IMG/VR virus record: IMGVR_UViG_3300010354_000102
Coordinates: 1-58,215 of that record
Origin: a virus
Length of the DNA stretch: 58,215 nt
Reading direction: 5' to 3' (one strand)
The notes below the pieces were generated by a model that saw nothing but the letters and a program-made list of their open reading frames with translations, did not search any database and was not told where the DNA came from. Shown piece after piece: positions 2,961 through 18,700 of the stretch. The position numbers and the translations under genes were made by a program. The stretch's first letter is position 1, and the number at the start of each line of letters is the position of its first letter.

Positions 2961-3161
2961 TCATTCTGCTACCACTTCTTCTGCTGGTGCTTCTTCTGTA
3001 GGTGTTGGATCTAGAAGTTCTAGAGTTTCTAAACCACCTTGAAGTTTTAGGCGATACTCTTTTGCTTTCGCTAGTTCATCTTCTAACTTAGCAATTTGCC
3101 CATCAACATTAGTGAGTTGAGTTTGAAAATTTTCCTTTAGTGTTGCGCTGTCAGTAGCCAT
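2961..3161 (-). CDS. Small coiled-coil protein, 66 aa, unknown
   Basis: I chose the ATG at 3161 because GGAGAA lies about 10 nt before it. A longer frame from 3212 would run back into the preceding gene. The protein starts MATDSATLKENFQTQL. Residues about 10-50 form a heptad-like helix (VDGQIAKLEDELAKAKEYRLK), and the tail is acidic and Pro/Ala-rich (PTPTEEAPAEEVVAE). It is last in the enzyme operon and followed by a terminator. Its function is not recognised. A small structural or assembly role is possible because the neighbours are neck genes. Confidence 0.7.
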   Translation of the reverse strand: MATDSATLKENFQTQLTNVDGQIAKLEDELAKAKEYRLKLQGGLETLELLDPTPTEEAPAEEVVAE

Positions 3162-3166
3162 AGTAA

Positions 3167-4858
3167 TCAATTCTCCGTTTTTCTTAATACATAAATTGCT
3201 AAACCATTCCACCAGCTGGCAGAATCTTCTATTTGAGGCGTAAGTATTTGACGCTCAAACAGAACTTCGAGATTATTTATATCTATAAATTTTTGCCCAT
3301 TACGGATAACCCCATCAAAGTTGGCATCATCCAATACCAATATAAAAGTATCTTGTAGATTAGGAAGCAAGTTGGTTAGGCATTCTACCTGTTGATCATC
3401 GTGCTCTCCATCATAGAATACAATATTTGGTTTTCTGGAGAAGTTAGATGCAGATAATTTTCTAGCATCCATATCTATTATAGCAGATTTTAAACTACCA
3501 AACAAGATGTTGTTTCTTGAAAGTTCTGCCTTAGGATTTTCAACACCTCTCCATTCAATATCATCTCTGGCGGGAGAGATAGGAGCAGCAAAGTTATCAA
3601 CTCCGTATGATACAATATCATTACCCATGATAGCAGCAAAGTATGTGCTGCCTGTATAGCATCCAATTTCCAAATATGCATTCTTGGGATCAGAACACAG
3701 ATGATTTAAGAAGTGACGAACTCTATCAGATGACAATCCTTCAATTTTAAATCCTTCTGGTTTAAAGTTTGTTTCCCCAGTTGCCGACTTATCAATCGCA
3801 TCAAGCGTCAGTTTAACAAGTGAATGTAGTTTTCTATCTTGCTTTTTGTGATGAGCTTCGATAACTGCCTCACAGTAGTTGCAATCCCAACAATCAAACT
3901 TACAAGTCTTGATCTTCTCTCTCCAGATATCAATCGGTCTCTCATTCAAACTCTTGTCTTGAATGTAGGTATTGAGTTCTGGGAATAGAAGTTCTTCATC
4001 ATTCGCCCAGCGTTCAATAATATCCATACTTTCTTTAAGACGCATAACACTTTCTCTGCCGTGCATCTTAAAGACATCGATACCCAGATCAAACATCTCC
4101 TCCCAATCCTTTTTCCAGGGCGGAAGGTTTGCTGACTTCAGAACAGCAGAGCTATCTTGCTGCTCCCATTTAGAGCAAGAAACTCTACTGATGATATTTC
4201 CAAAGTATGGTGGTTCGTGGTTCTCTCTTGTGTTATTATAGTGGTAATGCTCAGGCATGATAGGGCAACCACCCCAGCATCCTTCATTAGCAAGCATCGA
4301 GAACTTGACTGGTTTGCCAATCGAAGCACAGTATTCTTTTGCTTCTTTTAGACGCTTTAGTTGTTCTTGGTCTCTCATCAGATCTCTATCGAGATTGATA
4401 TAATGGAAACCAGCTTTAGCAAGAGAAACAATATCGTTTGCTTTAGTAACTTCATGTAGAATAGTATTCTTGATATACAGTTCAGGAAATGCTTTCTGTA
4501 TTTGACCTGTTAGCATCCACGATGTATGAGGAAGCGTGACAGTTCTTACACCTGCTTCATAGATGTAACGGAAGTTATTGATGAATAGATCTAGGTTCTC
4601 TTGAGTAGGTCTGACGTATGGATTGTTAAACGTGGCAGACAGAGGAATACCAGTTTGCTTTTGAATGTATAGAGCGTTGAATGTTGTCTGTCTGAGATCA
4701 TCCTCAAACACATCACCCATAGCATCCTGCATAAACGGAGGCATCCTACAAGTGAAGTAGAGATCAAAAATATATTGTTTGTGTTTTTTCAAAAATGGAA
4801 TAAGAATATCATTAGCAAAATTCTCATCTATCTTTGGATTGATAGGTAAGCTAAACAT
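3167..4858 (-). CDS. Cys-rich barrel protein fused to SAM methyltransferase-like domain
   Basis: A 563-aa protein with two parts. Residues about 1-370 look like an alpha/beta (TIM-barrel-like) domain with Cys clusters: NEGCWGGCP near residue 196, SCSKW near 230 and CKFDCWDCNYCE near 318-328. The phrase NEGC..CP followed by HYHYN recalls U32-peptidase-like or UbiU/RlhA-type Fe-S proteins, but this is only a resemblance. Residues about 390-545 have a class I methyltransferase look: YLEIGCYTGST (SAM-binding loop) near 393 and VFYDGEHDDQ near 478, followed by LVLDDANFDG, as in Methyltransf_24 proteins. Inference: an Fe-S-dependent enzyme with an attached methyltransferase, acting on the same substrate as the upstream oxygenases. 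It overlaps the upstream gene by one base (TAATG). Confidence 0.6.
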   Translation of the reverse strand: MFSLPINPKIDENFANDILIPFLKKHKQYIFDLYFTCRMPPFMQDAMGDVFEDDLRQTTFNALYIQKQTGIPLSATFNNPYVRPTQENLDLFINNFRYIYEAGVRTVTLPHTSWMLTGQIQKAFPELYIKNTILHEVTKANDIVSLAKAGFHYINLDRDLMRDQEQLKRLKEAKEYCASIGKPVKFSMLANEGCWGGCPIMPEHYHYNNTRENHEPPYFGNIISRVSCSKWEQQDSSAVLKSANLPPWKKDWEEMFDLGIDVFKMHGRESVMRLKESMDIIERWANDEELLFPELNTYIQDKSLNERPIDIWREKIKTCKFDCWDCNYCEAVIEAHHKKQDRKLHSLVKLTLDAIDKSATGETNFKPEGFKIEGLSSDRVRHFLNHLCSDPKNAYLEIGCYTGSTYFAAIMGNDIVSYGVDNFAAPISPARDDIEWRGVENPKAELSRNNILFGSLKSAIIDMDARKLSASNFSRKPNIVFYDGEHDDQQVECLTNLLPNLQDTFILVLDDANFDGVIRNGQKFIDINNLEVLFERQILTPQIEDSASWWNGLAIYVLRKTEN

Positions 4859-5541
4859 TAGTATAATCTCTCAAAGTGTTTGATGTCTCTGTCTCTGTCT
4901 GGTGCGTTAAATAACGAATACTCTGTTACTATATCTATTCCTAAAGTTATTCTTTCTTTTTCATTTGGGTTTGGAGTTGTCCAATGAATAATATGTTCTG
5001 GGAATAAAGTCATTGTTCCAGGAACATTAGTTAAAGCTGCCGCATTCATAGAGAATGGATTTTGGTATACGGTGCTAGTTCCTTCTGCCTGCAAGCATAC
5101 ATTTCCAGAAAGAAAACTAAAGGCATCACTACTATGTTGATGTGGATTTAACTTTTCTCCTTTTCTCAGCACGTTAGCCCAACACTGCGCCCATGGTTTT
5201 AATTCCATAATGTCTTCATTGACATATTCACACATTTCACGAATAGCATTATGTAACCATACTTTAAATTTTCTGACTACATAATCACTTCCATCATTGT
5301 CCCATTGTAGAATATTGTATCCTGCAAATTTTGCAGTTAAACTATTTGCGCCCAATCCAGTTCCACCATCATATGTGAGATGTGGATTTGAATTTATAAT
5401 TTCTTTTTCTTTTGAAAGAATTTTTTCAATCAGCATATTTATTTCTGTTTGAATAAAAACTTCACTGTTCCAAAATGGAATAGCATATACTGGAGCAAAT
5501 GGCGTGTGCGACTTTTGGTTTTCAAATAAATTTTTAATCAT
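4858..5541 (-). CDS. Putative 2OG-Fe(II) oxygenase, fourth of the operon
   Basis: A 227-aa protein of the phage 2OG-Fe(II) oxygenase type (PF13759/TIGR02466-like). The metal-site candidates are NPHQHSSDAFSFLSGN near residue 132 and the distal HIIHWTTPN near 183. They are followed by ERITLGID, where the Arg would bind 2-oxoglutarate. Such enzymes hydroxylate or otherwise oxidise amino-acid side chains or small molecules using O2 and 2-oxoglutarate. The substrate is unknown. It overlaps the upstream oxygenase by 8 bases and the downstream fusion gene by one, so it belongs to the same coupled operon. Confidence 0.7.
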   Translation of the reverse strand: MIKNLFENQKSHTPFAPVYAIPFWNSEVFIQTEINMLIEKILSKEKEIINSNPHLTYDGGTGLGANSLTAKFAGYNILQWDNDGSDYVVRKFKVWLHNAIREMCEYVNEDIMELKPWAQCWANVLRKGEKLNPHQHSSDAFSFLSGNVCLQAEGTSTVYQNPFSMNAAALTNVPGTMTLFPEHIIHWTTPNPNEKERITLGIDIVTEYSLFNAPDRDRDIKHFERLY

Positions 5542-6199
5542 TGAAATCTCCCATACCTATCATACTATATCTATCTTCGTTAAGATACCAGTTTTCTAAT
5601 ATCCACGGGGAATGAAAAAATCCACCGTTGTAAAATAAAAGTGTATTATATTCCATAGGAGCTATGCAAGTTAGTTCCCAATCTTCATCACCTCTAAAAT
5701 TTTTCCATGGTTCATATCCAACAGCGGAAAGAGATTTATCAAAAAGATGTGAATATTCTTCTTGAGTTAAATCATCAACATGTCTCTTATCTTTATGAGA
5801 CCAAAAAGCAGTTCCACCCAAACAGTTTTGATTTAGCCATAAATTCCAAATCCCATGAAAAGGATCTGAATGAGGAAGATTTGAATTGACTTTCATTCTC
5901 ATATCACCACTATAAATGTTACAAGATACTCTTGCTGGTTGCCATTTAATAACATTTGATTGAATATAACTTGTTATAAACTTAGCAGCCCATGGTGGAA
6001 TGTCTTGTCTAAATCCAGGAGAATATGTATGATCTCTTACTGCAGGAAAAGTTTTTAATAGAGTTTTATACTCTTCTGGATACAACAAAAAATTTCTGAT
6101 TACTTTAAATTTTGTATTGTCATATACAACTTCTTCTAGTTTTGCATCTGGATTGATCTGACAAATTTGTTCCAAATCTTCGTCTTCAAAAAATATCAT
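5534..6199 (-). CDS. DUF6445-like putative non-haem Fe oxygenase
   Basis: A 221-aa protein. It carries an HxD pair in NLPHSDPFHGIWNLWLNQ near residue 106, then GGTAFWSH, and a distal His in LLFYNGGFFHSPWI near the C-terminus. This HxD...H layout on a predicted double-stranded beta-helix fits a 2OG-Fe(II)-type enzyme of the DUF6445 kind. It differs clearly from its two neighbouring oxygenases, so it is not a simple duplicate. It overlaps the upstream gene in an ATGA. The substrate is unknown, and family assignment is from memory of the motif spacing. Confidence 0.6.
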   Translation of the reverse strand: MIFFEDEDLEQICQINPDAKLEEVVYDNTKFKVIRNFLLYPEEYKTLLKTFPAVRDHTYSPGFRQDIPPWAAKFITSYIQSNVIKWQPARVSCNIYSGDMRMKVNSNLPHSDPFHGIWNLWLNQNCLGGTAFWSHKDKRHVDDLTQEEYSHLFDKSLSAVGYEPWKNFRGDEDWELTCIAPMEYNTLLFYNGGFFHSPWILENWYLNEDRYSMIGMGDFND

Positions 6200-6861
6200 T
6201 GTCTTTCTATCCTAAAACTATAAGATTGATTGTGGATATATCTTGGCATTACATTAAAGGATATTGATATCCTATTATCTTCTTTGTTGTCAGTATATCC
6301 ATGTGCTATATTAGATTGCCATAGAAGTAAATCACCTTCCTCATAATTTACAAATGCTCCCCATGAATTATATTTTGTTGGAAAATTGACTGGAATATCC
6401 ATCGATTGCATAATACTATTCTCTGGATTAAAATCTTTATTTTTAAATCCTATAGGAGCATGTAATCCTTTAATATAATTGACATAATATGTTCCAGATA
6501 CATACGCATTTACATGGGTGTGATGAAATTGCTCTCCGCCAGCATCACATTTATTCAACCAACAATCTGTAATAATAACACCATCTTCCAAATAATATCC
6601 AAGAACATTCTCGATGTAATCAGAACACTTTTCTTCTATCCATTTTTCAAACCATTCAAAGTTTGCATAATCTAATAGATTTTGATTTTCTCTATTAAGA
6701 TAGTGATTTAGCTTAGAGTTTTGTGCGTTTCTTTTTAAAACACTTTCATCGTTTTCTATATCTTTCAGCAAAGAGAAGCACTGCTCTTTTAACTGTAGAT
6801 GCCTTTCTTTTTCTAAAGTATATTTTCCAATTACCCTTGGAAAGATTTCAATTGTCGCCAT
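6196..6861 (-). CDS. Putative 2OG-Fe(II) oxygenase, second of the operon
   Basis: A 221-aa protein of the PF13759 kind. The segment EQFHHTHVNAYVSGTYYVNY lies near residue 110. The distal part EGDLLLWQSNIAHGYTDN precedes NRISISFNVMP, with the conserved Arg for 2-oxoglutarate. These motifs place the Fe ligands as in prolyl-hydroxylase-like folds. It overlaps the second halogenase by 14 bases, which argues for translational coupling and joint action. The substrate is unknown. Confidence 0.75.
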   Translation of the reverse strand: MATIEIFPRVIGKYTLEKERHLQLKEQCFSLLKDIENDESVLKRNAQNSKLNHYLNRENQNLLDYANFEWFEKWIEEKCSDYIENVLGYYLEDGVIITDCWLNKCDAGGEQFHHTHVNAYVSGTYYVNYIKGLHAPIGFKNKDFNPENSIMQSMDIPVNFPTKYNSWGAFVNYEEGDLLLWQSNIAHGYTDNKEDNRISISFNVMPRYIHNQSYSFRIERQ

Positions 6862-8392
6862 AGATATTAGTTCTCAAATACTCATATACAGTTGATGATT
6901 GATCTGCTAATTTATTCCAGCGAGATCTCATACTGTTATTTAACATAATAAAATTATCGATCATTTTCTTCTTGTCAACCTGAGGAAAGTTCCATTCCCA
7001 CTCTGATACAACAACTGGGTCAATCATTCTGTAATCCATTCCAGCACAAATACAGTGAACTCCTACTGGTGGGTGATCTTCTACTAGTTCTTGTCTTCTA
7101 GCTAGATCAAAGAATTGTGATGTTGATGGTTGTTGTAAAACCATCTTTTCATCAAATACAGTTCTGTGTATTCTTTCCCAATATGCAGTATCTCTTCTTA
7201 GAGAAAGTGTATAATGCAACGCAACAAAGTGTGCAAAACGATCAAACATTTTTCTGGTAGTGGTGTTATAAACATCTCTATCCCACTGACTATATTCATT
7301 TCTATTCAAAGCACGAACTAGTTTCAAAAGGAACTCATGAACTGTATATAATCCGCTGCTTTGTAATGGTTCAATAAACCCAGCAGCCATACCAATACCA
7401 ACAACATTCTTGACCCAAGTTCTTTCATGAATACCAACACGCATTTTGATGTCTTTGTATTCAACGTCTGATCTATCTCCAAGATATTGTTTGAAATCTT
7501 CTAGTGCCTGCTCTGGAGAAATAGAAGTATCATCATAAACATATCCAGTTCCAATACGAGACCAGAGAGGAATGTTCCAGACCCAACCATGACCGATAGC
7601 GGTGCATGTTGTATATGGTTCTAGTTCCTTCTCTTTATCTTTGTATGGTATCTTTGTAGCCCATGCTCGATTGTTTGGAATAATGTCATTATAAGAAATG
7701 AATGGTTCTTCTAACTTATTCAATAGTAATGCCTTGCTTCCAGAACAATCAATATACAAATCAGCGGTAATAAATCGAGCATCGCCATCAAGGAAAATTC
7801 TTTCAATACCATCTTCTCCAACATCAATTGAAGTGATAGTTGATTGAATATGATTGACACCTCTGGGGATGCAATAGTGATCTCTTAGATATAATCCAAA
7901 CTTTACGCCATCGAAGTGATATGCTGTGTCTCTTTCAAACTTATAGTTTTCTAAATCGGTGCCAGTATAGATCTTATTGTTTTCTACAAACGGCATCATC
8001 GAGTAAAAAGTTCTGCAGTAATCCTGATTGGGAGTTTCTGGATAGTAATACTTTTTAAGTTGCCAATCATTCAATCCAAGAAATTCTTTCTTATAATGTG
8101 GGTGACCTAATGGATTATGAAACCCTCCATCATTTTGCTTATAGAAATCAACAAACTTAATGCTCTGCTTATAAGAAGCATCGCAGTATTTCATGAACTG
8201 CTTTTCATCAATACCGAGGGCAAACATCCATGGTCTGATGCCAGCAAGAGTGCTTTCTCCAACACCAGAGATAGGATGATCTGGGCTTTCTACTACTGTA
8301 ATTTTTTTATCTGGGAAAAATCTTACAAGTGTGGCAGCACTCATCCATCCAGCAGATCCACCACCAACAATAATAATACTATCAAACTTCAT
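6848..8392 (-). CDS. Flavin-dependent (tryptophan-type) halogenase 2, Gln at catalytic Glu position
   Basis: A 514-aa protein of the Trp_halogenase family (PF04820), which uses FADH2, O2 and halide to form hypohalous acid. Visible are the FAD-binding motif GGGSAGWMSA (residues 10-19), GVGEST near 43-48, Lys75 in SYKQSIKF (equivalent to PrnA Lys79 by my reading) and the diagnostic WVWNIP near 267. In IEPLQSSG the residue aligned with the catalytic Glu of PrnA is Gln344, while the paralogue next door has Glu344. The halide-loop Ser-Ser-Gly differs from the usual Ser-Thr-Gly. It may therefore have weak classical activity or another substrate. A cyanophage flavin halogenase (VirX1, phage Syn10) has been described as iodinating. 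The overlap with the upstream gene is 11 bases. Confidence 0.9.
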   Translation of the reverse strand: MKFDSIIIVGGGSAGWMSAATLVRFFPDKKITVVESPDHPISGVGESTLAGIRPWMFALGIDEKQFMKYCDASYKQSIKFVDFYKQNDGGFHNPLGHPHYKKEFLGLNDWQLKKYYYPETPNQDYCRTFYSMMPFVENNKIYTGTDLENYKFERDTAYHFDGVKFGLYLRDHYCIPRGVNHIQSTITSIDVGEDGIERIFLDGDARFITADLYIDCSGSKALLLNKLEEPFISYNDIIPNNRAWATKIPYKDKEKELEPYTTCTAIGHGWVWNIPLWSRIGTGYVYDDTSISPEQALEDFKQYLGDRSDVEYKDIKMRVGIHERTWVKNVVGIGMAAGFIEPLQSSGLYTVHEFLLKLVRALNRNEYSQWDRDVYNTTTRKMFDRFAHFVALHYTLSLRRDTAYWERIHRTVFDEKMVLQQPSTSQFFDLARRQELVEDHPPVGVHCICAGMDYRMIDPVVVSEWEWNFPQVDKKKMIDNFIMLNNSMRSRWNKLADQSSTVYEYLRTNIYGDN

Positions 8393-9974
8393 ATATGTTC
8401 TTCCTCATAAATTCATACGATGATGGTAGTTTCTGAACTTTCTCTGTTAGATGAGCTACGTGCCTTCTCCAACCTTCGTATATTGATCTTAGATCTTTAT
8501 TGTTTTGTTCATCTGCTGGGAGTAAATCTGCATGATAAGTATCAATTGGTTTGTGCCCCATACCTGCTAGGATATAAGCAACTCCATCAAATTCAGGTGG
8601 CCATACGTGAGCACATGAGTGGAAGTAATGGATCATCTCATAGAAGTTGTCAAACATTACACCAGCAGTTTTTGTTGTGAATGAATGAAATCTTTTATCT
8701 GCTTGCTCATCATCCCATAGTTTCCACCAATCTTTTTCTTCAGTTTGATATCTCCAGTATGGGGTATCTGTGCGAGATGAAAACTTATAATGAACGCTAA
8801 CAAAATTTCTGAAACCGTTCATATTCAATTGTGCCGCATAGTTATACCCATCAATATCAAATCCAGTTGGTCTATAGTTTCTTCTTTCAAGCAACTCCAC
8901 AATCTGAGAAATGACGGCATGTGTAGAAACTAAACCCGTTGATTCCAAAGGTTCAATAAATGCATATGCCAATCCAACGCCAACAACATTTTTCACCCAA
9001 CCTTTTTTGCGAACACCATGACGGATGTTTATTCTACGAGTGATATTGACATCTTCTGTTCCAAGATATTTCTTGAATTCTTTTTCTGCGGCATCGTCAT
9101 CAATAAAATCACTTGAATATACATATCCAGTTCCAATTCTATTCCAAAGAGGAATATTCCAAACCCAACCACTACTGAGAGCGGTGCAATCTGTGTAGTT
9201 TGTAAGTTGCTTTTCTTTATCAGTATATGGAAGATGTGCTGCAATAGCTCTGTCGTTGGATAACCATGGTTTGTAAGAAAGAAACTCAGATCCCATTTCT
9301 TTCTCTAACAATAAAGATTTGAAACCAGTACAATCAACATATAAATCTGCTTCGTATTTTGATCCAGATTTTCCAACAACACATGTCAAATATCCTTCTT
9401 CATCCTTTTCTACTCCAACTACGTCATCAATATAATGATTGACTTGATAAAATCTTTTCTTTAGAAAATTACCGAATGCTGCAGCATCAAAGTGATATGC
9501 AGTATCTTCAGCAAAATTAAAGTTTCTTAGAAGACCATCTTGATTGTAAGTATTCTTGTTCCACTTAGCTAGATGAAAATTATCATTATGATATTCACAG
9601 AAAGAATCAGTAGAAAGATTTTTGCTTCTCGCAGATAAGACAGACCAATCAGACATACTATGTTTATCTAATTTTCCACCAAAAGGATAGTGAAATGAAG
9701 TTCCATCATTTTGGCGAAAATTTGTAAAGCGAATAGAATTTTTATAAGTGGCATTGCATTCTTTCATCCACTCTTCATCTTTTAATCCAAGTAATTTTAC
9801 AAATCTTTTAAATCCAATAATTGTAGATTCTCCAACACCAACGGTTGGAATGGTATCAGATTCCAACAAAGATATTTTGCAGTCTTTACCTAAACGATGA
9901 TAAAATGCAGATGCTGCCATCCATCCAGATGAACCACCACCCACAATCAAAATACTTCTAATCACAGTTTTCAT
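8382..9974 (-). CDS. Flavin-dependent (tryptophan-type) halogenase 1
   Basis: A 530-aa protein of the Trp_halogenase family (PF04820). All signature parts are visible: GGGSSGWMAA at residues 12-21, GVGESTIIGF near 46-55, Lys78 in TYKNSIRF (expected active-site Lys), WVWNIP near 270, and IEPLESTG with Glu344-Ser345-Thr346-Gly347 matching the catalytic Glu and halide-binding turn of PrnA/RebH. It needs reduced FAD from a flavin reductase, and none is encoded in the window, so a host reductase is likely used. The start overlaps the upstream oxygenase stop in ATGA. It is about 40-50% similar by eye to halogenase 2, so the two are paralogues. The substrate (free Trp, peptide or other aromatic) cannot be told. 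Confidence 0.93.
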   Translation of the reverse strand: MKTVIRSILIVGGGSSGWMAASAFYHRLGKDCKISLLESDTIPTVGVGESTIIGFKRFVKLLGLKDEEWMKECNATYKNSIRFTNFRQNDGTSFHYPFGGKLDKHSMSDWSVLSARSKNLSTDSFCEYHNDNFHLAKWNKNTYNQDGLLRNFNFAEDTAYHFDAAAFGNFLKKRFYQVNHYIDDVVGVEKDEEGYLTCVVGKSGSKYEADLYVDCTGFKSLLLEKEMGSEFLSYKPWLSNDRAIAAHLPYTDKEKQLTNYTDCTALSSGWVWNIPLWNRIGTGYVYSSDFIDDDAAEKEFKKYLGTEDVNITRRINIRHGVRKKGWVKNVVGVGLAYAFIEPLESTGLVSTHAVISQIVELLERRNYRPTGFDIDGYNYAAQLNMNGFRNFVSVHYKFSSRTDTPYWRYQTEEKDWWKLWDDEQADKRFHSFTTKTAGVMFDNFYEMIHYFHSCAHVWPPEFDGVAYILAGMGHKPIDTYHADLLPADEQNNKDLRSIYEGWRRHVAHLTEKVQKLPSSYEFMRKNIYEV

Positions 9975-10705
9975 ATTGTTAGTCTATTCAGTGAGTTTGG
10001 GAAACCTAATGTGCCATTAAAGAAAAGATTAAAGCTAATACTATAGCGAACATCCTCTTGATTTTCGTTGGGAACTGTATCATGCTCCAACCACGAAGGA
10101 AAAATTAAACACATTCCTTTCTTGGGTTTAATATATATTTCTCCAGAATTTAGTTGATTTTTAGATTCAATTTGCGGCATGAAAAAATATTTGATCCTGG
10201 TGGGATCTATAAATCTAATATGATTTGATAGAGAATTTTCTGATATATGTGGTGGATCTTCTGGATACCATACACCAGCGAACATAGAGTTACTATGTGA
10301 GTGTGGATGAATATATCCACTATATCCCAAAACATTACCCCACATAGTTTCTACTCTGGGAGTAATATTTTTGTATGAATAAACATCAAATATCTTTTGA
10401 GCGATAATCTCAATTTGTGATCTTAATTCAAAGTAGATTGGATTTTCGTGTAAGGTATCTTCAGTATAAAAAGATATTCTGTTCTTTTCTAAAGACTGCT
10501 CTGTATTAACCAAGTAATCTCCAACAGATCTACTAACCTGATACTCATCAGATTGTGAATATTTTGAATGCAAATCTTTAATAATATCATCTGTATTTGA
10601 TACAGATATAGTGCTCTCAAATAGAGCAGTAGGAAATATATTATGAACGTTATTCAATTCAGATTTAGTTTGCTCAAACGAATAATCCCAAAAATTATTA
10701 TTCAT
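9971..10705 (-). CDS. Putative 2OG-Fe(II) oxygenase, first of the operon
   Basis: A 244-aa protein. HPHSHSNSMFAGVWYPEDPP near residue 130 and FPSWLEHDTVPN followed by VRYSISFNLFF near the C-terminus give the metal-ligand and 2-oxoglutarate Arg pattern of the PF13759 family (roughly 200 aa is usual). Its neighbours are two halogenases directly downstream (ATGA overlap) and a coiled-coil gene ending one base upstream. The enzyme probably hydroxylates a protein side chain or small molecule. Its place at the head of the enzyme cluster directly after fibre genes makes virion proteins plausible substrates. Confidence 0.78.
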   Translation of the reverse strand: MNNNFWDYSFEQTKSELNNVHNIFPTALFESTISVSNTDDIIKDLHSKYSQSDEYQVSRSVGDYLVNTEQSLEKNRISFYTEDTLHENPIYFELRSQIEIIAQKIFDVYSYKNITPRVETMWGNVLGYSGYIHPHSHSNSMFAGVWYPEDPPHISENSLSNHIRFIDPTRIKYFFMPQIESKNQLNSGEIYIKPKKGMCLIFPSWLEHDTVPNENQEDVRYSISFNLFFNGTLGFPNSLNRLTI

Positions 10706-10706
10706 A

Positions 10707-11453
10707 TCATTCGGTTGGTTTTAGTTTCTTTTGTTCTACAATTTCTTTAAGCGAATTAATCATCTTTAGTTGCATGTTATCTTCGATACCATCAAATGTT
10801 GGAAGACGAAGATTTTTTGGATCTGCTAATAAATGTTGAGTATATTCACGGGTGCTTCCTTCAATTTTTGCTAATTGACCTCCAAGAAGATTAGAATATT
10901 GAAATCCAATAGAAAGAATTTGTAGTTGATCTTCTTCAGGAAGCATTGCGATTGAATCCAAATTACCAGTGCTAATTCTTCCAAATGAAAGAATATCCAT
11001 GGCAGCTTGTTTGCCCATTCGAGCAAGCCAATATTTTCTTTCTTCTTCTGGATCTTGATCAAAATATTTTTCTATGTCTTCCTCTTTTTCTATATTTTCT
11101 TGAACTCTTTTAACAAAACAATCTATTTCTTGTTCCTGACGGTTTAATTTTCTTTTTCTAATTTCTTGATCACTTTCAAAATCTTCAATATCAATTCTAA
11201 TAAGTTCTGCTTCTAGTTCATCATTACAAGTTTCCAAATCTCTTTTTAATTTTTCAATTTTGACATCATCTCTACGAATATCAAGTTTAATTTTCCTCAT
11301 TCCATGATAACGATTTTCGATTTCTAATAATGCTTGTCTTACTTGACGATATTTTGTTACATGAGAATTCATGACAAAATTTTCATTTTGAAAGTCTGTT
11401 TGACCAGTAGAAAATTTTATCGCATTCTCAAGAATGGTCTCTTTACTTAACAT
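10707..11453 (-). CDS. Coiled-coil protein, 248 aa, unknown
   Basis: The ATG at 11453 is preceded by GGAG at a 7-nt distance. The frame extends a little further upstream only through a TTG, which I reject. The protein starts MLSKETILENAIKF. Residues about 45-130 are a strongly charged coiled coil (KIEKLKRDLETCNDELEAEL). The C-terminal third is globular (AAMDILSFGRISTGNLDSIA). No enzyme motif is visible. It sits between fibre genes and the oxygenase/halogenase operon and ends one base before the first oxygenase. A scaffold, chaperone or assembly role is possible but not shown. Confidence 0.75.
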   Translation of the reverse strand: MLSKETILENAIKFSTGQTDFQNENFVMNSHVTKYRQVRQALLEIENRYHGMRKIKLDIRRDDVKIEKLKRDLETCNDELEAELIRIDIEDFESDQEIRKRKLNRQEQEIDCFVKRVQENIEKEEDIEKYFDQDPEEERKYWLARMGKQAAMDILSFGRISTGNLDSIAMLPEEDQLQILSIGFQYSNLLGGQLAKIEGSTREYTQHLLADPKNLRLPTFDGIEDNMQLKMINSLKEIVEQKKLKPTE

Positions 11454-11470
11454 AACAATCTCCAATAATA

Positions 11471-12265
11471 CTAAAACTGTAATCCGATTTTTACAGGAAC
11501 AACTCTCTTGAAATCTACCACTCTGCCTTCTTCTCTTGCTTGAGTTTCTGGCATCGCAACACCAAAATGATCCTCGTATAATCTATTTAGATCACGAATA
11601 GTTGGTGCTGTTTTGAACTTCATTTTAAGTTCATTCATTTTTACTAAAAGATCTGTAATTTTAGTTTTGAAATTATTTCTGCCACCCAGAATTAAATCTG
11701 CCATCTGCTCTACACTTACTTCTCTTGAATTTGCTAGTGCAGTTAATAATGGAACGGATGCACTTGAATCTTTCTTGAATAAAACTGCTTCTTCATACTG
11801 TAGTTCAAATGATAAAGATTCCATCTGAGATGACATGTCAAGTTCCATAAATTTCTTATCAAACTCTTCTTCAATTACTGCTTTAGCAATATATCGCATA
11901 GCACTCATAACAGCTGCTCTTCTTTCATCATCTACTGGTATAACTACTTTTTCAATACCAGGAGAAATATCTTCATCTTGTGTAGCAAGGTAGATACCTT
12001 CTGATTGCCATGCTACAACTTCACCATCTATTTCTTGTTTGATAACCTTAACTTCATCTCTGATATCAGCAAATGTTCTAAATCCTTTAAATGCTGTAAC
12101 AGCATCCATTGGGTAATATTTACCTTTCACAATTTCTTTGAACATACTATCTTCGGAAACTGGAAGTGAAATAGCATACCAGTTTAATACGGATTTAAGA
12201 ACTCTCAAGTCATAAATGATTGAGAATAATGATGTATCTTTTGTTAAGTAATAAACTCTTTCCAT
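11471..12265 (-). CDS. Conserved cyanophage-type protein, 264 aa, unknown
   Basis: The protein starts MERVYYLTKDTSLFSIIYDL and is mixed alpha/beta with a helical second half. Towards the C-terminus it has NFKTKITDLLVKMNELKMKF. I do not recognise a domain. It lies 12 bases after a fibre gene and 17 bases before the coiled-coil gene. Genes in this place in contractile-tailed phages often help fibre folding or attachment, so a fibre-assembly role is a guess from position only. Confidence 0.7.
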   Translation of the reverse strand: MERVYYLTKDTSLFSIIYDLRVLKSVLNWYAISLPVSEDSMFKEIVKGKYYPMDAVTAFKGFRTFADIRDEVKVIKQEIDGEVVAWQSEGIYLATQDEDISPGIEKVVIPVDDERRAAVMSAMRYIAKAVIEEEFDKKFMELDMSSQMESLSFELQYEEAVLFKKDSSASVPLLTALANSREVSVEQMADLILGGRNNFKTKITDLLVKMNELKMKFKTAPTIRDLNRLYEDHFGVAMPETQAREEGRVVDFKRVVPVKIGLQF

Positions 12266-12277
12266 TTTTAATTCCTA

Positions 12278-14371
12278 TTAGTATGTTCCTATGCCACCAG
12301 TAGCACCAGATTCATCAACAACACCAGCACCTTGTTGATATGTTGATCCCGTAGTTCCTCCATATCCAGGAACAGGAGCAGCAACTTGATAACTTGCAGC
12401 TCCAGTGTAAGTCATGTAAGTTCTTGGTGGAGTACCAGCACCCATCATATCACCACCTTCTTGACCAGTTCCAGAAGATGCTCCAGGAATACCCTTACGG
12501 TAAGTTAAAGTTCCATCAGCAAAACGAATAACATCCTGGTAGTAATTATATATCCAAGCATTATTATTCTGAGCACCATTATAGTTTGAAACACAATATC
12601 CTTTGTTCATTCCAGTATGAAGATTTTCCTCACCTCCATTCTCTGGTTTTGAAATACCAGAACGAAGAATTACAGCATCACTATCTCTTCTTTTTGTAAC
12701 AGATCTATCTGTGTTGCCACCTTCTGAGGCATAGAAGAAACCAATTCTAGTTGCCTGGTGCTTATTAAATCCATCATTACCAGGAGCAGGAGAATAATTA
12801 GACCAAGCTGCATAAGATTCTGATGAAAATTCAAATCTATGCTGACCCGATGATACCCAAGCATAATATTCTCCTTCAGCGTGTGAAACGTGGTTTAAAT
12901 TTCCACCAATTTCAGAAAGCATTACTTCCGTGTTTAAATCGTGTCTTGAAGTATTGCCATTACCAGAAGTGATATATGCTCTATTTCTACCCCCATTAGA
13001 TCTCCACTGGTTGCCCATGAAATCAATCCATGCACCAGAATATGAACGTGCTCTAGTATCGTTCCATGCAGAATTGAGACCTCTATTTGTTTCCGTAATC
13101 ATACTCATCGAACATGTTGCTGAAGCCGCAGGTAACCAAGAGTTAGCACAATTATAAACAAATAGATTGACTCCATTATGTGATCCACCAATATATGCTG
13201 CTGAATAGTCAATAACATCTCCAATAGAAATAGTTACGTCTGATGGATGAGAAGTTCTATTACCATTTCTCCAAGGATTTGCATTCTGATATCCAGCAAC
13301 TGTATAACCTCTGTTGATGATATAACGGAATGACCACTGATCTGGATTTTCTAGTCGGTAGTTTGAATCTAGATCATGTGTCCAATATGCTTCAAATGCA
13401 GCTGTTGAAGTATTATAACGAGTTCTTAAAACAGCACCATCTGTTGTAGCGTTTTGAGTTGGTAATGTTTTAAAGATTGAACCATTTTGATATAAAGAAC
13501 CAGAGAAATTTATATCACCTTTAACATCTAAAAGATATCCAGGTCTCGATGAAGTGCTCCAGTTACCAATACCAACTCTTTCATTTGGTCGATCTAAAGT
13601 GATTAATGGATTAGTTTCGGAACCAGCATTAACTGCTCTGAAGAAAAGCATTCCAACAGATGAATCGTCTTGATTGATACAAAACCCATAATCATTTGGA
13701 GCTTGTCTGAAATAAATATGTCGATTATTTGTAGATGAACTATCTGGTCTAATAGTAATACCAGAACCACCAAGAACATTTAAACGTGTGTATTCTGTTT
13801 GGTCTGATGTTCCGATGGAAAGATTACCAGAGTTCCAAAGTCTTAATCTTATAGCTTCTGTAGTTGCACCGCTTCTAGTATACCAACCAAAATCTGGTGA
13901 TCCACTATTTCTGTAAAGAACTCTAATTCCACCTAACGGTGTAGCTCCACCAGATCCCTGAGTAAATCCTATACCATCATATTGACCATCATTAATTCCA
14001 GAATTTACTTGAATCTGAAAAGAATATCTTGTTCCTGCATTGTTTTGAACAACTGCTAATTTTGGAGATATTGCTGTAGTTGTACCTCCAACCATTGCAA
14101 CGCCGTTAAATGGAACTAATTTTAACGCTCCATTTGCATCATATGCTAAACCAGGAACTCCAGAAACATCAGAGACTGCAAAGATTGTTCCAGTAGTTAA
14201 ATTATTGTTTATAGAAAATAATTGCCCAGCGGAACCTTCAAAAGATAGTGTATTGTCATCAAGCACACGAAGTCTAATCGGTGAATTTACTTGACCAACA
14301 AAACTAACTTCAGGTATAGATGATGTGCCTTTATTCGGCGTTATAAGGATATCCTTATCAGAGTTCGCCAT
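12278..14371 (-). CDS. Tail-fibre / receptor-binding-type protein, 697 aa
   Basis: A 697-aa, Gly/Asn/Ser-rich beta protein. Residues about 1-110 resemble fibre shaft repeats (NSPIRLRVLDDNTLSFEGSA), and around 270-300 is the common fibre phrase VKGDINFSGSLYQNGSIFK. The C-terminal half is aromatic and Asn-rich (residues about 340-630), as in exposed receptor-binding tips. The last 60 residues are Gly-rich (GQEGGDMMGAGTPPRTYMTY). It probably contacts the host surface. It has its own late promoter (TATAAATA at 14394-14401), 23 bases before the ATG. Confidence 0.8.
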   Translation of the reverse strand: MANSDKDILITPNKGTSSIPEVSFVGQVNSPIRLRVLDDNTLSFEGSAGQLFSINNNLTTGTIFAVSDVSGVPGLAYDANGALKLVPFNGVAMVGGTTTAISPKLAVVQNNAGTRYSFQIQVNSGINDGQYDGIGFTQGSGGATPLGGIRVLYRNSGSPDFGWYTRSGATTEAIRLRLWNSGNLSIGTSDQTEYTRLNVLGGSGITIRPDSSSTNNRHIYFRQAPNDYGFCINQDDSSVGMLFFRAVNAGSETNPLITLDRPNERVGIGNWSTSSRPGYLLDVKGDINFSGSLYQNGSIFKTLPTQNATTDGAVLRTRYNTSTAAFEAYWTHDLDSNYRLENPDQWSFRYIINRGYTVAGYQNANPWRNGNRTSHPSDVTISIGDVIDYSAAYIGGSHNGVNLFVYNCANSWLPAASATCSMSMITETNRGLNSAWNDTRARSYSGAWIDFMGNQWRSNGGRNRAYITSGNGNTSRHDLNTEVMLSEIGGNLNHVSHAEGEYYAWVSSGQHRFEFSSESYAAWSNYSPAPGNDGFNKHQATRIGFFYASEGGNTDRSVTKRRDSDAVILRSGISKPENGGEENLHTGMNKGYCVSNYNGAQNNNAWIYNYYQDVIRFADGTLTYRKGIPGASSGTGQEGGDMMGAGTPPRTYMTYTGAASYQVAAPVPGYGGTTGSTYQQGAGVVDESGATGGIGTY

Positions 14372-14393: not shown

Positions 14394-14401
14394 TATTTAT
14401 A
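14394..14401 (-). promoter_or_regulatory. T4-type late promoter for the 697-aa fibre gene
   Basis: Exact TATAAATA on the minus strand, 23 bases upstream of the ATG at 14371. It overlaps the stop codon of the preceding LamG gene. Late transcription with gp55 is expected from T4 biology. Confidence 0.65.
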
Positions 14402-15035
14402 TGCCATAACGCTTTCTGGTGTTTTCAAAAATAGTTGTTAATTCAGTATCAGTAATATATCTATTATAGATTAACATCTGTGCTAAATTACCTTCCATAA
14501 AACCACTTCCTCCAGACCCAATTGTAAATTCTGCTGATTGACCTGAAGGTGTTGAAGTTAAATTTGGTCCACTGGTGCTAATATTATCGGTATTTCTGTA
14601 GATAGTTCTAGAACCGTCAGAATTTTTAAATCTGAATGTTGCTAAAGTCCACCCAATATTTCCGAGATCTCCTCCATAAGTATAATAATCATTTGATCCT
14701 CCATTTAAATATAATAAAGAATTATTTCCTTGAACATAACAAACATGCAAAGCAGAATTAAGACCACCTAATAAAGTTTGACTTACTTTATCAGTAATAT
14801 TGATCCAAGCAGAAACAGTCCATTCTTGAGTAAGATTGGGTTGATTTAATGGATTTGGTATGGTAATTAAACTAGAAGTTCCATTAAAAACAATACTTCC
14901 CCCACCAGAAGAAGAGTTATAAGTTATATTAGATGTGGAAGTTATTTGTGCGTTAGACAAATACTTTTGATTTGAAGCATCTAACGCAAATACTAATCCC
15001 GAATCGGGTATGTAAGTTCCTGAATATGTTGCCAT
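14397..15035 (-). CDS. LamG/concanavalin A-like protein, second of a tandem pair
   Basis: A 212-aa protein with a single LamG-like (concanavalin A-like, Laminin_G_3) fold: SGLVFALDASNQ near the N-terminus, TQEWTVSAWINITDK in the middle (the usual core strand) and LAQMLIYNRYITDTELTTIF before the end. Such jelly-roll domains bind sugars. In this setting it may be a fibre-tip or virion decoration domain binding host lipopolysaccharide. It shares the N-terminal SGLVF phrase and the C-terminal R-K-R-(Y/F)-G-I ending with the gene upstream, so the two are tandem duplicates. The start overlaps the upstream stop (TAATG). Confidence 0.8.
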   Translation of the reverse strand: MATYSGTYIPDSGLVFALDASNQKYLSNAQITSTSNITYNSSSGGGSIVFNGTSSLITIPNPLNQPNLTQEWTVSAWINITDKVSQTLLGGLNSALHVCYVQGNNSLLYLNGGSNDYYTYGGDLGNIGWTLATFRFKNSDGSRTIYRNTDNISTSGPNLTSTPSGQSAEFTIGSGGSGFMEGNLAQMLIYNRYITDTELTTIFENTRKRYGI

Positions 15036-15718
15036 TAGATACCAAACCTCTTTCTTAATGAATTGAAATTTTGTGTTACTTCAGATGCAGATAAAACTCT
15101 ATTATATATTTTATGAACTGCAATTTTTACATTTGCATATCCATTATATCCCGCTCCTGGTCTATTATAAGTTCCTAAAGTATGCTCGAATACATTTGTT
15201 GTTGGGCTTCCATCATATGTGCCTGAAGATGATAATATTTCTACACCATTTATGTAGTATTTTTGAGATCCATTTTGAATAGATGATGTTATGTTATACC
15301 AAGAATTTGTGTCTATAGATGTGTTATATGTAGTATTTGTAAAATATGCTCCATTATCATAATATTGTATTAATAATCCAGTGGAAGTAAATGTCAATCG
15401 TAATTCTGGTTGATCAAAATTGTCAATTACCATAAAATGCCCATTATCTCCTTTTTTCTTTATCCAAGTTTCTGTAGTCATTGTAGAAGAAGATATATTA
15501 GATGTTCCACAGCTAATATATCCATTAGTTCCATTTAATGAAAAACTACCTCCACCATCGCTATCAACTGTTACGCCACCAACAATACTTCCATTATTTG
15601 AGTATCCACTAATATCATTCCACGTATTTCCAAGACCAGAATAACATTTAGTATTTCCAGGGTCTAAGCAAAATACAAGACCAGATGAATTTGTATATGG
15701 GTTATAACCTATTCCCAT
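15035..15718 (-). CDS. LamG/concanavalin A-like protein, first of a tandem pair
   Basis: A 227-aa LamG-like protein. The ATG at 15718 overlaps the stop of the giant fibre as TGATG. A GTG one codon upstream is possible but less likely. Motifs are SGLVFCLDPGNTKCYSG (N-terminus), TMTTETWIKKKG (core strand) and IAVHKIYNRVLSASEVTQNF before the C-terminal RKRFGI. The family binds carbohydrates. Coupling to the fibre gene suggests that it is attached to, or displayed with, that fibre. Confidence 0.8.
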   Translation of the reverse strand: MGIGYNPYTNSSGLVFCLDPGNTKCYSGLGNTWNDISGYSNNGSIVGGVTVDSDGGGSFSLNGTNGYISCGTSNISSSTMTTETWIKKKGDNGHFMVIDNFDQPELRLTFTSTGLLIQYYDNGAYFTNTTYNTSIDTNSWYNITSSIQNGSQKYYINGVEILSSSGTYDGSPTTNVFEHTLGTYNRPGAGYNGYANVKIAVHKIYNRVLSASEVTQNFNSLRKRFGI

Positions 15719-18700
15719 CACTCTTCCTCCTCAACAGGTAACTCAACTTCAACCTCAAGTGGTTCAATATCCTTACGAGCAGCTTGAACGAAGTAGAATG
15801 CTTCGCCGCCACCAATAAAGATCGTATTATCTTCAATCTTCTCAACCCATGACATGTGATTGCCGATTGGAGTGAGTTGAACTGTGAGAGTATTTTCATC
15901 AATAAGAGAATTCCAATAATCTGGAAGTTCAATCACATTATTAGTTACCTTACCACGAACATAAACTGCATGTTCTGGTCCTTCTAGCGAACCATATACA
16001 AGGTCGTGATTTTCTTTGGTTGGGTGAGGAATACGGAATGACTTACTTGTAGCAGCAAACGAACCATTAACTTGCAACTGATATGTAAGTGTGTTACTTT
16101 GTGCAATATTAATACCAACTCTTGCAGCGGAATCCATATAGATACCAACTGTTGAAGTTGTGTTGGGGAATAACTGATTTGCATTTGTGCTAGTTTGTGC
16201 AATTAAGAACTTACCACCAAGTTGACCAATTGAATAATGTTGAACAGAGTCATCATGTAACTTAATACCTTGACCATTTGTATAAGTTCTAGGGGTAGAG
16301 GCATCACCAATTCTGATCCAAGGAGCATCGATATCAGCACCCAATCCAGCAGTAGTATTTGCATCAGTTGTATTGTTATTTACTGCAAGTAACTTAGTTT
16401 GTAATCCACCGCCCGATGCAGTATTTCTAAATCTACCTTGTTCTGTTCCAGTATCTGTTTGGAAAATAAGAGCAGAGTTATCATTAACTGATAAAATGGA
16501 ACCAGAACCAGATGATGTGATAGTTAATCTATTTCCAGTTCCACCTGTCTCGCTAATGCCAAGACCAGTATTGAATGCAATCTTGAGCTGACCTGTCATT
16601 GTATCGCCAGCCTTCAATACGTTGAGAGAAGAGGCTCCAGTAACAGAAGCAGTAATTGTGCCAGCAGCAAAGTTGCCAGAAGCATCACGAAGAACAACAG
16701 TATTTGCTACGTTATTTGTAGCTGGAGTAAGGTTACCAGCGTTCCAAATTTTCTGATTATTGATTGTTGCTGAATCTGTAGTAGCAACAACAATATTTAA
16801 ATTGCCACTTCCATCAGAATTGTTACCACCAGATGCAATTAATGCTACATTATAGTTTGGTGCGGGTGAAGAACTGGTGCTTAGGTAGATAGCAGGAGAT
16901 GATGCTTGACCATCTTTTCTACCCAACTTAAGTAATCCAGTTCCAGTAGAACTCTCAAGAGAAGCAGTTTCAAATGTTCCTTGATTTTTTAATGTATAAT
17001 CCTGGAATGCAACTCTATCATTTGCCGTTCCAATCGTTTGAGCTCCATTGAATGTTCCAGTGTTTAATACACCAGAAATAATAGTATAGTCTAAATTATC
17101 ATCCGCATCATTGTATGTTGTAACATTAGTGATTGTTAAAGTTCCTGTTCCCTGTGCGTTTACATCATATAAGTTTACAGGTAGACCAGCAAGGAATGGT
17201 GATGCAGTTAGAACATAACCAGAAATATAAATGTCGTAATATGGGTTGTTTGTGGTGGTTAATATTTTAACTGAGTTGTTGAATGATTTTGCAGTTAAGT
17301 AAGGTGCTAGTCTATTGTCACTTAAAATACCACTGTTAATATTGTAAGCATTTTGATAGAAAGATCCTTGGCGATTATCAAGTTTATCTGCATCTAATCC
17401 AGTTCCAGGACCATCATTGATTGATGTCCATACTTTAGCCCAAGTTCCGAAAGTGGTTACTCCAGTTCCAGAACCACGGATCCACATATTATCATTATCA
17501 GTAAATGCAAGCTGTCTTACACCACCACCAGTAGCATCAAAACCAGAACCAAAGTTTCTGAGAGTTAATACTAAGTGTCTAGATCCACCATCACTTAAAC
17601 TATCTGCACTGTTATTTCTAGTATCAGCAATAATACCTTCGGAGAATGAGTTTGGTGATGGGGAAGAAGTTGGGTTGTTAGTAGAAGTAATTAAACGTAA
17701 CGTGTTACCAGACTGACCAGAAACACTAATATTATATGTTCCACTTAAACGATCAACTGATACAACGCCAGCATTCAAGTTACTTGCATTGAGATAATAT
17801 GAACCTTGAGCGCCATCAAGTAAATCAGCATCTAATCCACTATCTGCACCAGTCTTTAGAGTTACTGAACCATTTCCAGATGCCCCAAGTGTAAACTGTG
17901 ACTTCTGGAAACGAGCAACACCAACACTACCAAATGGATCAGAAGAAATAGTTAAATCGTCAACTCTCTTGATATCAAGAGCGGTGTTTGCGTAATTTTT
18001 AGCAGTAGTTGCTAGTTTTGCTGCAAGAACAAGACCAGAACCAGAACCGATACCAGCAGGGGTATTTGTGATGTTGAAATCACCTGTATAGTTAATACCA
18101 CCATTAGTAACAATAATACTAGTTACTGCATTTCCAGAAACAGTGATATTTGCCTTCAATCCAGTGCCAGTTCCACCAGATAGAGAAACGTCAGTATATG
18201 TTCCATTAGTAAAACCAGTGCCACCAGAGACAATTACAACATTATCAATGAAACTTCCAATTGTATATACTGTATCTAAAATAAGAGGAGAGGCGGGTCT
18301 AGTAAATTCAATAATAGTTCCAGAAGGAATATTCTGAGTTACTGGATTGTTTAATGTTACAGTTGTTGATCCACTAGCAGTTAACACATTTGAAACTGAA
18401 GTATTAGCTGCAACACCAGTGATCGAAACAATACCATGACCTTTGAGAATATTTGCGTTAGTTGCAAATACAAAGGTGCTGGATCCAGATGATACTGCCT
18501 GAGTTAGTTTAGCGAAGTATCTTGTTTCAGACCCTTTAATTGATTGAACTACAGGAGCATATGCTTGATCACCTCTTAAGAAAGTAAATGAATTAGCTTC
18601 AGTGGAGTTTTGTGCTAAACGCGAAGTTGAAATAACGCCAGATGTAATAGCATCAGCTGCAATTTGATTAGATGAAAGTGATACCCAATTAGAAGAAAGT

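Follow-up and report, generated by a model that had tools for sequence, protein, structure and literature searches.

A string of seven enzyme genes in an IMG/VR virus record (IMGVR_UViG_3300010354_000102) is proposed here to form an exchangeable cassette for the late tailoring of tail adhesins, a reading to which we give a probability of roughly 0.5. The record represents a T4-like cyanobacterial virus; the whole analysed stretch (58 kb; 58,215 nucleotides) is called the window in this work. The genes encode two flavin halogenase homologues (Hal1 and Hal2), three 2-oxoglutarate (2OG)-Fe(II) oxygenases (OX1, OX2, and OX4), a DUF6445 protein, and a fusion (phrog_1458) of a U32-related barrel with a methyltransferase-like domain. 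Modification of fibre or lectin proteins had already been suggested in an earlier note made from the sequence alone (the original prediction), and it is the best of the readings considered because the adhesin-side location of such enzymes recurs across phage groups and the cluster probably shares a late transcript with the adhesin. It is further supported by the exchange of adhesin and enzymes as a block, the spacing between Gly-rich proteins and halogenase genes, the enzyme clusters of L100-type phages, the pairing of barrel and halogenase genes, a JmjC_2 protein in a related array, the lack of the Trp4 motif, and the open active site of the halogenase VirX1. That these enzymes chemically decorate host-binding adhesins is suggested, though not proven, by the order of genes in many related viruses.

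Late in infection, the cassette would be transcribed together with the tail adhesin phrog_1417, and side chains of the newly made adhesin or of lectin-type fibre proteins would be the targets. Hal1 would halogenate Trp or Tyr with FADH2 from the host, the four 2OG-type enzymes would hydroxylate, and the fusion would hydroxylate and/or O-methylate. We infer that the adhesin serves as substrate, that the modifications occur, and that they are of benefit, as the added groups would alter receptor binding or protect the fibre. Somewhat more tentatively, several phage lineages may diversify their receptor-binding proteins chemically after translation, using dedicated, exchangeable enzyme sets to halogenate, hydroxylate, and O-methylate the tail adhesins, with the U32-methyltransferase fusion as a new protein-modifying member. 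No report of halogenated or hydroxylated phage adhesins was found in a literature search of incomplete coverage.

Gene Organization and Transcription Unit

The original prediction placed seven touching or overlapping enzyme genes between fibre-type genes and gp13, and all of these open reading frames (ORFs) are intact as placed. They run on the minus strand from position 10705 to 3167, with overlaps of 4, 11, 14, 4, 8, and 1 bases between successive ORFs. Upstream of OX1 lie the genes of phrog_1409, phrog_1604, the adhesin-like phrog_1417 protein, and then two Laminin_G_3 lectin-type proteins, while phrog_580, gp13, and gp14 follow downstream. Pfam, PHROGs, and NCBIfam profiles were used to assign the cluster proteins to families. 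Both halogenases match PF04820 (E 1e-97 and 1e-109; 367.5 bits for Hal1 and 328.1 bits for Hal2, with a Pfam gathering cut-off of 21), three proteins match PF13759 in Pfam (E 4e-7 to 1.5e-19), the protein at 5534..6199 matches DUF6445 in Pfam (E 6e-9), and the fusion matches phrog_1458 in PHROGs (E 6e-230). Judged by these profile scores, the assignments are far beyond chance. The features, in descending coordinate order, are as follows:

14397-15035 and 15035-15721, minus strand: two Laminin_G_3 (ConA-like lectin) proteins, further candidate substrates
14394..14401, minus strand: TATAAATA motif of the T4-like late promoter type, 23 nt ahead of the adhesin gene, where the transcription unit probably starts
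12278..14371, minus strand: adhesin-like protein phrog_1417, which opens the unit and is a candidate substrate
11471..12265, minus strand: phrog_1604/10301 protein, constant adhesin partner with a presumed chaperone or accessory role
10707..11465, minus strand: phrog_1409 protein, constant adhesin partner
9971..10705, minus strand: OX1, 2OG-Fe(II) oxygenase (PF13759/TIGR02466), conserved H135, H137, H208, R220
8382..9974, minus strand: Hal1, flavin halogenase of the VirX1 clade, K78 and E344 intact (PrnA K79/E346 positions)
6848..8392, minus strand: Hal2, flavin halogenase homologue from a different clade than Hal1, retaining the catalytic Lys but with Gln at the catalytic Glu position (FIEPLQSSG)
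6196..6861, minus strand: OX2, 2OG-Fe(II) oxygenase (PF13759), H114, H116, H187, R197
5534..6199, minus strand: DUF6445/phrog_1644 protein, 2OG-oxygenase-like residues H110, D112, H196, R210
4858..5541, minus strand: OX4, 2OG-Fe(II) oxygenase (PF13759), H134, H136, H186, R197
3167..4858, minus strand: phrog_1458 fusion, U32-type Cys-rich TIM (triosephosphate isomerase) barrel (~1-345) and class I methyltransferase-like domain (~370-563)
3274..3281, minus strand: the following TATAAATA late-promoter motif, ahead of phrog_580

The NATAAATA motif is a late-gene promoter type of cyanophages (PMC2984593). Because one TATAAATA precedes the adhesin gene by 23 nt and the next on the same strand lies at the 3' end of the fusion gene (3281-3274), the arrangement fits a single late transcript from adhesin to fusion. 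A AATAAATA occurs within OX4, at 5443-5436. The number of late-promoter motifs in the window is not above the base-composition expectation; it is the position of motifs near gene starts, not their count, that is informative. The phrog_580 ORF as listed (2961-3212) begins at a GTG within the fusion gene, and its likelier start is the ATG at ~3161, directly past the fusion stop codon.

Exchange of the Enzymes Together with the Adhesin

The fusion gene is present in 123 deposited cyanophage records, and dozens of contigs conserve one order: adhesin (phrog_1417), phrog_1604, phrog_1409, variable enzymes, fusion, variable oxygenases, phrog_580, and gp13. Between phrog_1409 and the fusion, the window and its closest relatives (L017, L031, L032, L028, and L030, where L numbers denote compared loci) have inserted enzyme genes. 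OX1-OX2-DUF6445 stand alone in L019, L020, L022, L025, L027, and L036; Hal2 and OX4 are added to these three in L017, L031, and L032, and they are likewise present in L028 and L030, whose upstream end is cut. Hal2 and OX4 were jointly present or absent in 11/11 relatives with both positions readable, while Hal1 comes in addition only in the window among the near relatives compared. The cluster had been said to look like a complete modification pathway, a view that had to be given up, as its parts come and go and close relatives have no halogenase or one. Because near relatives have OX1-OX2-DUF6445 either alone or with Hal2 and OX4 added, and only the window among them has Hal1 as well, the enzyme set, as far as gene content tells, is one that grew stepwise and not an obligatory pathway.

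Beginning with the fusion start codon, L017 and L019 share 99.4% identity across 4605 nt, whereas upstream their adhesin, phrog_1604, phrog_1409, OX1, OX2, and DUF6445 proteins are 49-91% identical in amino acids. Because they differ across this whole upstream block yet are near-identical from the fusion on, adhesin and enzymes, on the evidence of this comparison, are replaced together as a block by recombination. Both are metagenome contigs, but the alternative blocks recur in further contigs, so that an artefact of assembly alone is less likely. In another contig (L138:1-494), the end of OX1 is 99% identical to that of the window (84 aa; 89% at the DNA level), and past it Hal1 is ~50% and gp13 36% identical, pointing to a mosaic junction or a chimeric contig.

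Neither the fusion nor the phrog_1417 adhesin was found in 12/12 halogenase-bearing deposited cyanophages tested, and all 4 tested genomes with the fusion also carry the adhesin; the two co-occur or are both lacking in 16/16 genomes. In terms of gene content, the window is a hybrid that joins the phrog_1417-fusion module with a halogenase set.

These data bear on the alternative that the enzymes make or modify a small molecule late in infection (host pigment, indole, quinone, or secreted metabolite), for example, a halogenated compound aiding the infected cell or deterring competitors or grazers. Protection against antibiotics has been proposed speculatively (PMC2984593), and modification of host metabolites (PMC10452541) and 2-oxoglutarate/NtcA modulation (PMC3037559) have been proposed as well. 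VirX1 acts in vitro on many small aromatics (PMC8407142), and solitary halogenases are found away from fibres. Nevertheless, the cluster contains no biosynthetic or transport genes, it is exchanged with the adhesin, such clusters repeatedly adjoin adhesins, and the joint presence or absence of fusion and adhesin was without exception in the genomes tested. We consider the small-molecule explanation rather unlikely.

Halogenase Loci in Other Phages

The tandem halogenase pair, first thought to be unusual, proved to be common: halogenase genes are adjacent in 24/80 IMG/VR loci with Hal1-like genes, and tandem halogenases stand beside 2OG arrays in Syn9, P-TIM40, S-RIM44, and P-RSM6, with prnA listed twice for Syn9 in a 2010 review (PMC2984593). 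A single halogenase accompanies a 2OG array in S-CREM1, Sf-FP1, S-WAM1, Sf-FR1, S-SZBM1, and Sf-CH11, and the array leads into gp13 in S-RIM44, Sf-FP1, Sf-FR1, and Sf-CH11. Tandem halogenases beside oxygenase arrays are already known, and the particularity of the window is their join with the phrog_1417-fusion module. Two other contigs (L213 and L215) have three adjacent halogenase genes each.

A Gly-rich adhesin-like protein is encoded within 8 genes in 63/142 halogenase loci, and in 63/63 the first halogenase gene downstream of it lies 1-4 genes away, at exactly 2 genes in 44. Such proteins are not exclusive to halogenase loci, as they also occur in 21/73 fusion loci without a halogenase. 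In S-RIM44, L155, L184, and L169, Gly_rich_2 proteins are encoded upstream of the halogenases; in composition they resemble gp38 tip adhesins, which carry glycine-rich motifs (PMC12892980). At L155:6485-9091 and similar loci, the halogenase is preceded by three Gly-rich paralogues that resemble one another and have a high content of His, Tyr, and Asn; their C-terminal halves are strongly conserved, and they are the best candidate substrates in the wider family. Between the Gly-rich adhesin and the halogenase or barrel, a protein of 140-180 aa without a Pfam family in our scan is encoded in L003, L006, L009, L010, L014, L155, L157, and L184, possibly an adapter or chaperone.

Barrel-only homologues of the fusion (26-33% identity) are encoded beside VirX1-like halogenases or at most two genes away in 14/80 loci; in L157 and L207, gp13-gp14-gp15 are next in line, and in L168 one further gene intervenes. 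Downstream of a fibre gene and a gene for a tail-assembly chaperone (Phage_tail_APC), L100-type phages carry a cluster of halogenase, oxygenase, and carbamoyltransferase genes; in these non-cyanophage contigs (L100, L101, L135, and L136), three halogenase-family genes are present with the oxygenases and the carbamoyltransferase. Collagen-like Gly-X-Y repeats were considered as prolyl-hydroxylase substrates and rejected, with no run of ≥5 triplets in the fibre proteins of the window; in S-CREM1, a gene annotated as 'collagen-like' adjoins the halogenase.

Several observations weigh against adhesin tailoring. The adhesin module occurs without a halogenase at many loci, the Glu-to-Gln change in Hal2 may mean that it does not halogenate, and the flanks of fibre genes are general insertion sites, so the synteny may be passive. 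The loci counted above are phylogenetically related, and the counts are not independent. No modified adhesin has been observed, and no product of the enzymes has been demonstrated. Gene order in relatives, named beforehand in the original prediction as a refuting test should most of them lie away from fibres, gave a divided picture: the nearest relatives of Hal1 (L137, L146-L151; 57-77% identity) adjoin UvsX-gp41 helicase genes and have no oxygenase array, and the halogenases of S-B64 and S-MbCM6 are also located elsewhere, but most other halogenase loci with oxygenase arrays adjoin fibres or Gly-rich adhesins.

If the interval between fibres and gp13 is a gene-gain hot spot, the genes could also be neutral or unrelated cargo with separate functions and no common substrate. 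The composition of the interval differs greatly among relatives, Hal1 and Hal2 come from separate clades that are brought together in the window alone, and the relatives of Hal1 occupy another locus. We nevertheless find cargo improbable, given that active sites and reading frames are intact throughout (bar the Hal2 Glu), that the spacing from Gly-rich adhesin to halogenase is strict in many loci, that U32-barrel and halogenase genes are paired in a second phage group, and that Hal2 and OX4 appear or vanish jointly.

Halogenases

Hal1 aligns over its full length with VirX1 (phmmer E 4e-127), and in the tree it falls within the VirX1 clade, while Hal2 belongs to a separate clade of mostly non-cyanophage phage enzymes. 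Both proteins contain the GxGxxG and WxWxIP motifs and the catalytic Lys (PrnA K79). With the PrnA E346D structure (2jkc) as a ruler, the catalytic Glu position is the second Glu of EPLES, which is matched by E344 of Hal1; Hal2 has EPLQS there, as do all of its close relatives read. The catalytic pair is K/E in 66, K/Q in 7, and K/N in 1 of the 74 aligned phage homologues. The activity of Hal2 is uncertain because Gln replaces Glu, a change that abolished activity in another flavin halogenase (PMC8407142), and its halogenase activity may be altered or weak. Thus, the statement that there are two flavin halogenases holds for family membership (both PF04820), with Hal2 lacking the catalytic Glu.

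The Trp4 motif (YYHG-type), which a published motif table links to free Trp as substrate (PMC8269204), is absent from both Hal1 and Hal2, and VirX1 has an open active site (PMC8407142). A profile search found no Flavin_Reduct gene in the window or in 16 other phage records, and the FADH2 partner would therefore be supplied by the host. No cellular relatives of Hal2 were found among genome contigs with the pattern set used, which is a weak negative.

Oxygenases and the DUF6445 Protein

Four Fe/2OG oxygenases had been counted in the cluster; three match PF13759, and the fourth is a DUF6445 protein, albeit with an intact HxD...H...R set. OX1, OX2, and OX4 have an HxH variant of the metal site in place of HxD. 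HxH...H...R in these three and HxD...H...R in the DUF6445 protein are kept across all or nearly all orthologues, a conservation consistent with four active Fe/2OG enzymes. PHROGs labels DUF6445 proteins as 'minor coat protein', which is probably wrong, as the complete residue set of a 2OG oxygenase is carried (5534-6199 in the window). The oxygenase array of S-RIM44 contains a JmjC_2 protein, a family that includes known protein hydroxylases.

The Barrel-Methyltransferase Fusion

The barrel-methyltransferase fusion was correctly recognized in the original prediction, and its parts can now be described as a U32-type Cys-rich barrel and a C-terminal methyltransferase-like domain. The AlphaFold model shows both domains with a mean pLDDT (predicted local distance difference test) of 82, the cysteine segments being of low confidence. 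Methyltransf_24 is matched by the C-terminal domain in 28/29 family members (best 6e-9; the window protein is below the cut-off), and the top Foldseek matches of this domain are methyltransferases; by profile and predicted fold, it is a class I O-methyltransferase-like domain (Methyltransf_24/TylF).

Eight barrel cysteines are invariant in 29 homologues of the fusion, and C194, C198, C228, C319, C323, C326, and C329, together with K264-GR, are invariant in both the fusion family and distant barrel-only homologues. Over its length, the barrel can be aligned with proteins of Klebsiella and Proteus phages that Pfam assigns to Peptidase_U32, and it shares with them most of its cysteines and the K-x-x-G-R motif; in profile comparison, the match has 94% probability (P 1e-7; P 1e-6 with a wider homologue set), and these phage proteins in turn match E. 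coli UbiU/UbiV/TrhP/RlhA (P 6e-7). There is no direct Pfam match of the fusion to PF01136 (Peptidase_U32) above the cut-off, the profile match of the fusion to the E. coli proteins is not significant, and one further comparison is weak. A comparison of alignment A11 with the E. coli U32 proteins was set aside, as A11 contains a U32 protein. Because the direct E. coli match is not significant, the link to U32 rests on the phage U32 proteins as a bridge. In the fold search, the U32 structure 5d88 ranks 5th among other TIM barrels (template modelling score, TM, 0.62), with the best target-normalised score listed. The Glu that is essential in TrhP and RlhA (E162/E161; TrhP residues from PMC6599085) is missing from the fusion, which has Ser187 at that position and a conserved Glu192 two residues before C194. 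With this Glu missing and the direct match to the E. coli proteins not significant, the barrel is best called a U32-related domain. Lys-AminoMut_A was also considered as the barrel identity, but its match is weak (E 0.004, 4/29 members), and U32 is preferred.

U32 proteins catalyze O2-independent hydroxylation (PMC11574389), and in B. subtilis, the U32 proteins TrhP1/2 pair with the O-methyltransferase TrmR to form 5-methoxyuridine (PMC6599085); by analogy, this pairing is a suggestive parallel to a hydroxylase-methyltransferase fusion. It also raises the possibility that the fusion, as a one-protein version of TrhP and TrmR, or even the whole set, modifies nucleic acids. U32 enzymes hydroxylate tRNA and rRNA pyrimidines, the domain pair matches the yrrMNO logic (PMC6599085), and the Klebsiella phage U32 proteins are encoded beside a thymidylate-synthase-family gene, pointing to nucleotide modification. 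However, the Glu essential in TrhP/RlhA has no counterpart in the fusion, no RNA-binding domain was found, and the fusion gene is always in the adhesin module and not near nucleotide or tRNA genes, which leaves a nucleic-acid target improbable. As to the T4-like Klebsiella and Proteus phages themselves, they encode a true Peptidase_U32 protein (L144:7989-9149; L145:7986-9152), and its neighbor in the Klebsiella phage suggests a U32 role in modified DNA bases.

Significance

What cyanophage halogenases, among them the well-known biocatalyst VirX1, and the very abundant 2OG oxygenases of cyanophages do physiologically has been a question since about 2005-2010. The comparative data lead to a specific, testable substrate hypothesis, namely that the enzymes act on tail adhesins, and foremost on the Gly-rich or lectin-type proteins whose genes lie directly upstream. 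If adhesin tailoring is true, phages would tune host binding through chemistry in addition to sequence, and enzymes able to halogenate folded proteins at defined sites would have practical use as tools.

Comparison with Known Systems

The closest known counterparts of the halogenases are VirX1 of cyanophage Syn10 (PDB 6qgm) and the Syn9 pair gp41/gp42, Hal1 being in the same clade as Syn9 gp42. Like the window, Syn9 has a pair of overlapping halogenase genes with 2OG oxygenase genes after them; in the window, however, the pair is in reversed order, and Hal2 falls in a different clade, with Gln at the catalytic Glu position, while Syn9 is without the fusion and the phrog_1417 adhesin. The Kyanoviridae phages S-RIM44, Sf-FP1, Sf-FR1, and S-CREM1 share with the window a fibre or adhesin gene, halogenase(s), and several 2OG oxygenases, mostly leading into gp13, but their arrays follow Gly-rich adhesin paralogues (detected by Pfam in S-RIM44 and by a hidden Markov model, HMM, in S-CREM1) and lack the U32-methyltransferase fusion, whereas the window has the phrog_1417 adhesin module. 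In cyanophages of the Syn33/ACG-2014j type, the order phrog_1417-1604-1409-1458 with 2OG genes nearby is the same as in the window, but no halogenase is present at the phrog_1458 locus. Finally, the fusion resembles the U32 hydroxylases TrhP, RlhA, and UbiU/UbiV in its TIM barrel, cysteine set, and KxxGR motif, and differs from them in the attached methyltransferase-like domain and in the TrhP essential Glu, which is not conserved.

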